Of a DNA stretch of 48,837 bases, positions 16,010-48,651 are shown piece by piece. The position numbers and the translations under genes are program-made. This DNA comes from Nitrososphaerales archaeon. Lineage in GTDB: Archaea; Thermoproteota; Nitrososphaeria; Nitrososphaerales; JANXEG01. Under the pieces are notes generated by a model, which had not been told where the DNA came from, searched no databases, and worked only from the letters and a program-made list of their open reading frames with translations. Location: NCBI GenBank assembly GCA_025058425.1, contig JANXEG010000002.1, positions 1-48,837 on the forward strand, written 5' to 3'. Each line of letters opens with the position of its first letter. Within the stretch, counting starts at the first letter, position 1.

Positions 16010-16101
16010 TGGCGGGCCTGGTGGGATTTGAACCCACGACCTACTGGTCTCTCCTGTAGGGTTTAAGAGCCAGCCGCTCTTCCTGGCTGAGCCACAGGCC
16101 C
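16010..16101 (-). tRNA. tRNA-Lys(CUU) with a 15-nt intron
   Basis: Read on the minus strand, the acceptor GGGCCTG pairs with CAGGCCC, the D arm is GCTC/GAGC, the T arm is GTGGG-TTCAAAT-CCCAC, and CCA is encoded (complement at 16010-16012). The anticodon stem CTGG/CCAG closes a seven-base loop CTCTTAA (anticodon CTT) only if 15 bases, AACCCTACAGGAGAG, are removed between positions 37 and 38. Exon bases CTCT pair with intron GGAG, leaving three-base bulges on both sides, as the archaeal splicing endonuclease needs. The intron is short enough that the inner part is a simple loop. Confidence 0.92.
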
Positions 16102-48518: not shown

Positions 48519-48651
48519 CGCCGGGGGTGGGATTCGAACCCACGAGACCTCGTAAGAGGTCACAGGCTCTCTATTACGGACTCAAGGCTTACGCTCTAAT
48601 TACGAACTGCGCATTATTGTGTAATTTCATAGTCCACTCTGCTACCCCGGC
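48519..48651 (-). tRNA. tRNA-Ser(UGA) interrupted by three introns
   Basis: On the minus strand the acceptor GCCGGGG pairs with CCCCGGC; the T arm is GTGGG-TTCGAAT-CCCAC; a long variable arm is GACCTC-TTAC-GAGGTC; CCA is not encoded. The 133-nt gene folds as a serine tRNA only if three stretches are removed: 15 bases in the D arm at 48614-48628 (GAAATTACACAATAA, ends uncertain by one base), 18 bases between positions 29 and 30 at 48589-48606 (TTCGTAATTAGAGCGTAA), and 12 bases between 37 and 38 at 48569-48580 (TCCGTAATAGAG). The result has D stem GCAG/TTGC, anticodon stem CAGGC/GCCTG and loop CTTGAGA, and is 88 nt long. Confidence 0.85.

Follow-up and report, generated by a model that had tools for sequence, protein, structure and literature searches.

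A tRNA-Ser(UGA) gene interrupted by three short introns in an uncultured Nitrososphaeria archaeon

The tRNA-Ser(UGA) gene, its spliced form, and the other tRNA genes

The window, i.e. the whole stretch of 48,837 nucleotides analyzed here, carries a pre-tRNA-Ser(UGA) gene composed of four exons and three introns (Table 1). An earlier note on this DNA had located the gene correctly and omitted its strand, which is the minus strand. No CCA is encoded. The ends, T arm, and variable arm of the precursor are as perfect as the note had described them, with 7/7 pairs in the acceptor stem, 5/5 in the T stem, a variable-arm stem of 6 bp, and a discriminator G73.

Table 1. Features of the pre-tRNA-Ser(UGA) gene, in window coordinates
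Feature	Position	Strand	Length	Details
Pre-tRNA-Ser(UGA) gene	48519..48651	-	133 nt	
Exon 1	48632..48651	-		tRNA positions 1-20a: acceptor 5' strand, U8, 5' half of D arm
Intron 1	48617..48631	-	15 nt	TATGAAATTACACAA; D loop, best placed at 20a/20b; central helix GUGG/ACAC, 3/4 pairs
Exon 2	48607..48616	-		tRNA positions 20b-29
Intron 2	48589..48606	-	18 nt	TTCGTAATTAGAGCGTAA; anticodon stem, 29/30; central helix GCGC/GCGU, 4/4 pairs
Exon 3	48581..48588	-		tRNA positions 30-37; anticodon UGA at 48582-48584
Intron 3	48569..48580	-	12 nt	TCCGTAATAGAG; canonical site 37/38; relaxed motif, C32-G and U33-A only
Exon 4	48519..48568	-		tRNA positions 38-73: anticodon stem 3' strand, long variable arm, T arm, acceptor 3' strand, discriminator G73

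Bioinformatic tools largely overlook the unspliced gene. Neither ARAGORN nor Rfam cmscan reports a match for it, and in a search of the whole genome with a tRNA model the T arm was its sole scoring part (14.6 bits). When introns are allowed, ARAGORN reads the precursor as a tRNA-His with one 58-nt intron, which we rejected as a misreading. Removal of the three introns (15, 18, and 12 nt) leaves an 88-nt RNA (GCCGGGGTAGCAGAGTGGACTAATGCGCAGGCCTTGAGAGCCTGTGACCTCTTACGAGGTCTCGTGGGTTCGAATCCCACCCCCGGCG) that ARAGORN calls tRNA-Ser(tga) and for which the minimum free energy fold is a cloverleaf, which bears out the central claim of the earlier note. By comparison, the precursor and every partly spliced form tested (five intron-holding forms) gave no call in default mode. 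The spliced product has a 7-bp acceptor stem, a 5-bp T stem, a long variable arm, the UGA anticodon, and G73, and its anticodon arm has the five Watson-Crick stem pairs and the proper loop (CUUGAGA) that had been claimed. Chance is excluded for this product, because its segment GTGGACTAATGCGCAGGCCTTGAGAGCCTGTGACC is matched letter for letter by an intronless gene from a relative of the same order (L027 in G020).

The tRNA set of this genome is intron-rich. Among the 28 genes that could be parsed convincingly, to which the census is confined, 23 are interrupted: 16 have one intron, five have two, and two, tRNA-Ser(UGA) and tRNA-Ser(GGA), have three, leaving five intronless genes. For the two three-intron genes, parsing was manual and ARAGORN served as the check. 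The introns of tRNA-Ser(GGA) (L104, 145-277 of G000:C20) interrupt the acceptor stem at 5/6 (22 nt), the anticodon stem at 29/30 (14 nt), and the 37/38 site (11 nt); the leader of this gene contains a segment, GGCTAGGG, that is complementary to CCCTAGCC of its own D arm. Elsewhere in the window, on the minus strand at 16013-16101, lies a tRNA-Lys(CUU) gene with a 15-nt intron at 37/38 (AACCCTACAGGAGAG). ARAGORN calls the unspliced gene tRNA-Arg(tct), an assignment that we rejected since removal of the intron yields a form called Lys(ctt).

Splice sites and BHB motifs

The letters alone leave the edges of intron 1 ambiguous, because sliding cuts give an equal product. We scored the central helix of the bulge-helix-bulge (BHB) motif, a 4-bp pairing of exon nucleotides -6 to -3 with intron nucleotides -6 to -3, in the window and in related genomes. 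The cut GTGGAC^TATGAAATTACACAA^TAATGC yields such a helix in the window and its relatives, and the site is shared, at the same position, by the 15 relatives' genes examined. At 20a/20b, 54 of 60 possible central-helix pairs are formed (15 genes; shuffle mean 27.5), whereas sliding both splice points by -2, -1, +1, or +2 leaves 39, 35, 30, and 3 pairs, respectively. Intron 1 is thus best placed at 20a/20b, where the pair counts are highest, and the 22/23 site proposed in the earlier note has no BHB helix. A functional gene with intron 1 cut at 22/23, 21/22, or 20b/21 would give the same product, which is what makes these cuts permissible from the letters, but among intact frames the GUGG-(C/A)CAC pairing arises only at 20a/20b, and we consider the other cuts unlikely.

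The two remaining sites gave comparable results. All 72 possible pairs are formed at 29/30 (18 genes; shuffle mean 24.1), and 115 of 148 at 37/38 in relatives (shuffle mean 65.5). In 2000 trials in which intron letters were permuted, kinship among genes being ignored, the observed pair counts were reached by none of the shuffles at any of the three sites, and sliding both splice points lowered the count at each. Support independent of the central-helix counts comes from the inner stem of the 29/30 intron, which totals 99 bp over 18 introns (shuffle mean 11) and shows compensatory changes (CG/TA, GC/AT, and AT/TA/CG/GC) at equal stem positions in these genes. In the window, introns 1 and 2 both form a BHB motif. 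At 37/38 the window has no strict BHB (2/4 central pairs), whereas relatives keep 3-4 central pairs; the weak helix of C-G, U-A, and then mismatches is as the earlier note described it, and we class it as a relaxed bulge-helix-loop because only C32-G and U33-A are kept. Two relatives' genes (L030 and L060) have 37/38 introns of 10 nt (TAGACGAGAA and TCCCAAAGAC), one base under the published minimum of 11 nt.

Conservation and copy number

The nearest genome, G001 (MAG JZ1_bin.63, Nitrososphaeria archaeon, JARVKA01), belongs to the same genus and keeps all three introns. Between it and the window, exon changes affect 3 of 88 columns and intron changes 11 of 46 (Fisher p = 0.0005), whereas the flanks of the gene are only about 40% identical. 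Three introns at the same sites are also found in other families of the order (G005; G012, G025, and G035). Two introns are present in G060 and G014 (D loop and 29/30), G016 (29/30 and 37/38), and G011 (D loop and 37/38), one in G026 (D loop), and none in G020, G004, G015, and G036. Overall, no fewer than 16 families of this order include relatives that carry the intron set or have lost it, and four sites recur across the order: 8/9, 20a/20b, 29/30, and 37/38.

Genes with the 8/9 intron display an additional feature: in the leader, ∼8-33 nt upstream, the 5' acceptor strand is repeated as GCCGGGG or GCCGGGA. This copy occurs in 21 of 22 genes with an 8/9 intron vs 2 of 28 without it (same order; kinship uncorrected). 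The loci, all outside the window, are L024, L026, L030, L057-L065, L071, L074, L082, L133, L136-L139, L143, and L145. While the intron holds the true 5' strand, the 3' acceptor strand may pair with the leader copy instead; alternatively, splicing could take place inside the repeat.

The genes of relatives also speak to whether this gene is genuine. Tools that overlook it and an assembly in 101 contigs, with the gene ∼190 nt from a contig end, could point, respectively, to a decaying, unused tRNA-Ser copy with random insertions or to a sequencing or assembly error that spoiled an intact gene. Independent assemblies (G001, G005, G012, G025, and G035) share the three sites but differ in their intron letters, which already refutes an error and leaves it a negligible probability. 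A decaying copy is hardly more credible. The three sites are retained in five other genomes from three families, and partly in more, the exons are conserved but the flanks are not, and the 29/30 intron stem shows compensatory changes; this conservation counts strongly against a pseudogene, and we rejected both explanations on the relatives' genes.

A functional gene is also what copy number and codon use suggest, since this is the only tRNA-Ser(UGA) gene found and UCA codons are common (154 in 13,290, from 40 window ORFs). A second intact gene, which the earlier note had named as grounds against its reading, was not found in the organism's own assembly (95% complete), where a pattern search returned one match. 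In DNA searches of the same genome, the longer matches beside tRNA-Ser(UGA) were only tRNA-Ser(CGA) and tRNA-Ser(GGA), and tRNA-Ser(GCU) was parsed separately. Given 95% completeness, a second copy may possibly have been missed, though there was no sign of one.

Splicing enzymes, order of intron removal, and known multi-intron tRNAs

The genome contains two splicing endonuclease genes and an RtcB ligase gene (E = 5e-176). The first endonuclease paralogue (L009) has an intact Y/H/K triad (VYEYG, IDHAP, and VRKQF) and can be aligned with both the S. tokodaii and the A. pernix catalytic chain, its catalytic His falling on the His mutated in entry 3AJV. Its K41 aligns to A. pernix K44 of the crenarchaea-specific loop, in a gapless stretch (GIPKPKNADF vs VEKPRGADF). 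In the second paralogue (L010), the catalytic His is absent at the aligned place. One paralogue with the triad and one without it indicate that a predicted (alpha-beta)2-type endonuclease, known here from its genes, is encoded. It resembles the (alpha-beta)2 enzymes of A. pernix (3P1Z) and S. tokodaii (2CV8) in having two genes and a catalytic subunit with both triad and loop lysine, but the best-scoring matches of its second subunit are 5X89 and M. jannaschii 1A79, not a crenarchaeal beta chain. Loop-bearing two-subunit endonucleases cut relaxed motifs (review PMC6379350).

Taken together, these findings make us highly confident that the locus is a functional, single-copy tRNA-Ser(UGA) gene, the UCA reader of an uncultured Nitrososphaeria lineage, with BHB introns at 20a/20b, 29/30, and 37/38 that depend on endonuclease/RtcB splicing. 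The anatomy of the gene, the identity of its product, its conservation, the BHB pairing, and the existence of genes for both enzymes are shown here; that the gene is transcribed and spliced, and in which order, we infer. The two-subunit endonuclease would excise the three introns and RtcB would join the exons. The 29/30 intron, which has the strongest motif, probably leaves early. Its removal would allow two elements to form: the D arm, which holds intron 1, and an anticodon stem with all five pairs, which would then present the weak bulge-helix-loop of intron 3.

Pair probabilities from a 37 °C model are consistent with this order. As long as intron 2 is present, no complete anticodon stem forms. 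Its removal by itself gives a D stem at 0.94, the intron 1 helix at 0.65, and the whole anticodon stem at 1.0, whereas loss of intron 1 alone has no effect and loss of intron 3 alone restores just one half of the anticodon stem. Early removal of intron 2 is favoured because its loss alone lets the full stem form, and the remark in the earlier note that splicing order may matter is plausible for the same reason, the 29/30 intron being the only one whose removal, in folding, frees the anticodon stem while another intron remains. In the full precursor, BHB 2 has a probability of 0.01 in the same model; its near absence from the fold implies that the proposed first step has to be assisted by the enzyme or by co-transcriptional folding, or that a 37 °C model is unfit. 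The weakness of the 37/38 motif likewise speaks against our reading. An obligate hierarchy, in which the 29/30 intron must go first since it keeps the D arm separate from the anticodon arm, and in which the intermediates are fixed, is a tentative extension that we regard as somewhat doubtful. If true, it would be a well-defined example and no new principle, since tRNAscan-SE 2.0 already builds on order-dependent splicing of tRNA introns that lie close together.

Published lengths of archaeal tRNA introns lie between 11 and 129 nt, most medians falling within 12-25 nt, and 20/21, 22/23, and 29/30 are listed non-canonical sites (PMC4090602). The non-canonical status that the earlier note gave to two of the sites is supported; its description of sizes and sites as unusual does not agree with these data. 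The rarity outside Thermoproteales that it had suggested is likewise unsupported. tRNAscan-SE 2.0 counts up to three introns per tRNA, a known maximum, with order-dependent detection, and reports multiple non-canonical introns in Thaumarchaeota (PMC8450103), and in Caldiarchaeum subterraneum 3 of 45 tRNAs have multiple introns (PMC3293823). With intron sizes, sites, and three introns per tRNA already published, the three-intron tRNA-Ser(UGA) is a fresh example of an already described phenomenon. It shares with the multi-intron tRNAs of Thermoproteales (Pyrobaculum and Thermofilum) three short BHB introns, one canonical and two non-canonical, and a heteromeric splicing endonuclease. It differs from P. 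islandicum tRNA-Pro(UGG), with introns at 25/26, 37/38, and 56/57 (PMC4090602), in the tRNA, in the non-canonical pair, and in belonging to an uncultured Nitrososphaeria lineage. From a related lineage come the intron-rich tRNAs of Thaumarchaeota and Aigarchaeota, whose non-canonical sites are likewise several and extend to the D arm; the Caldiarchaeum cases named are Leu, Glu, and Thr, and a triple-intron tRNA-Ser(UGA) is not among them (PMC8450103, PMC3293823).

For annotation, a conserved tRNA-Ser(UGA) is overlooked by common tools that lack an archaeal mode, and its apparent absence from such genomes is an artefact. For the order, the series in which one gene has zero, one, two, or three introns is a good natural data set for studying how tRNA introns are gained and lost and in which order they are spliced.
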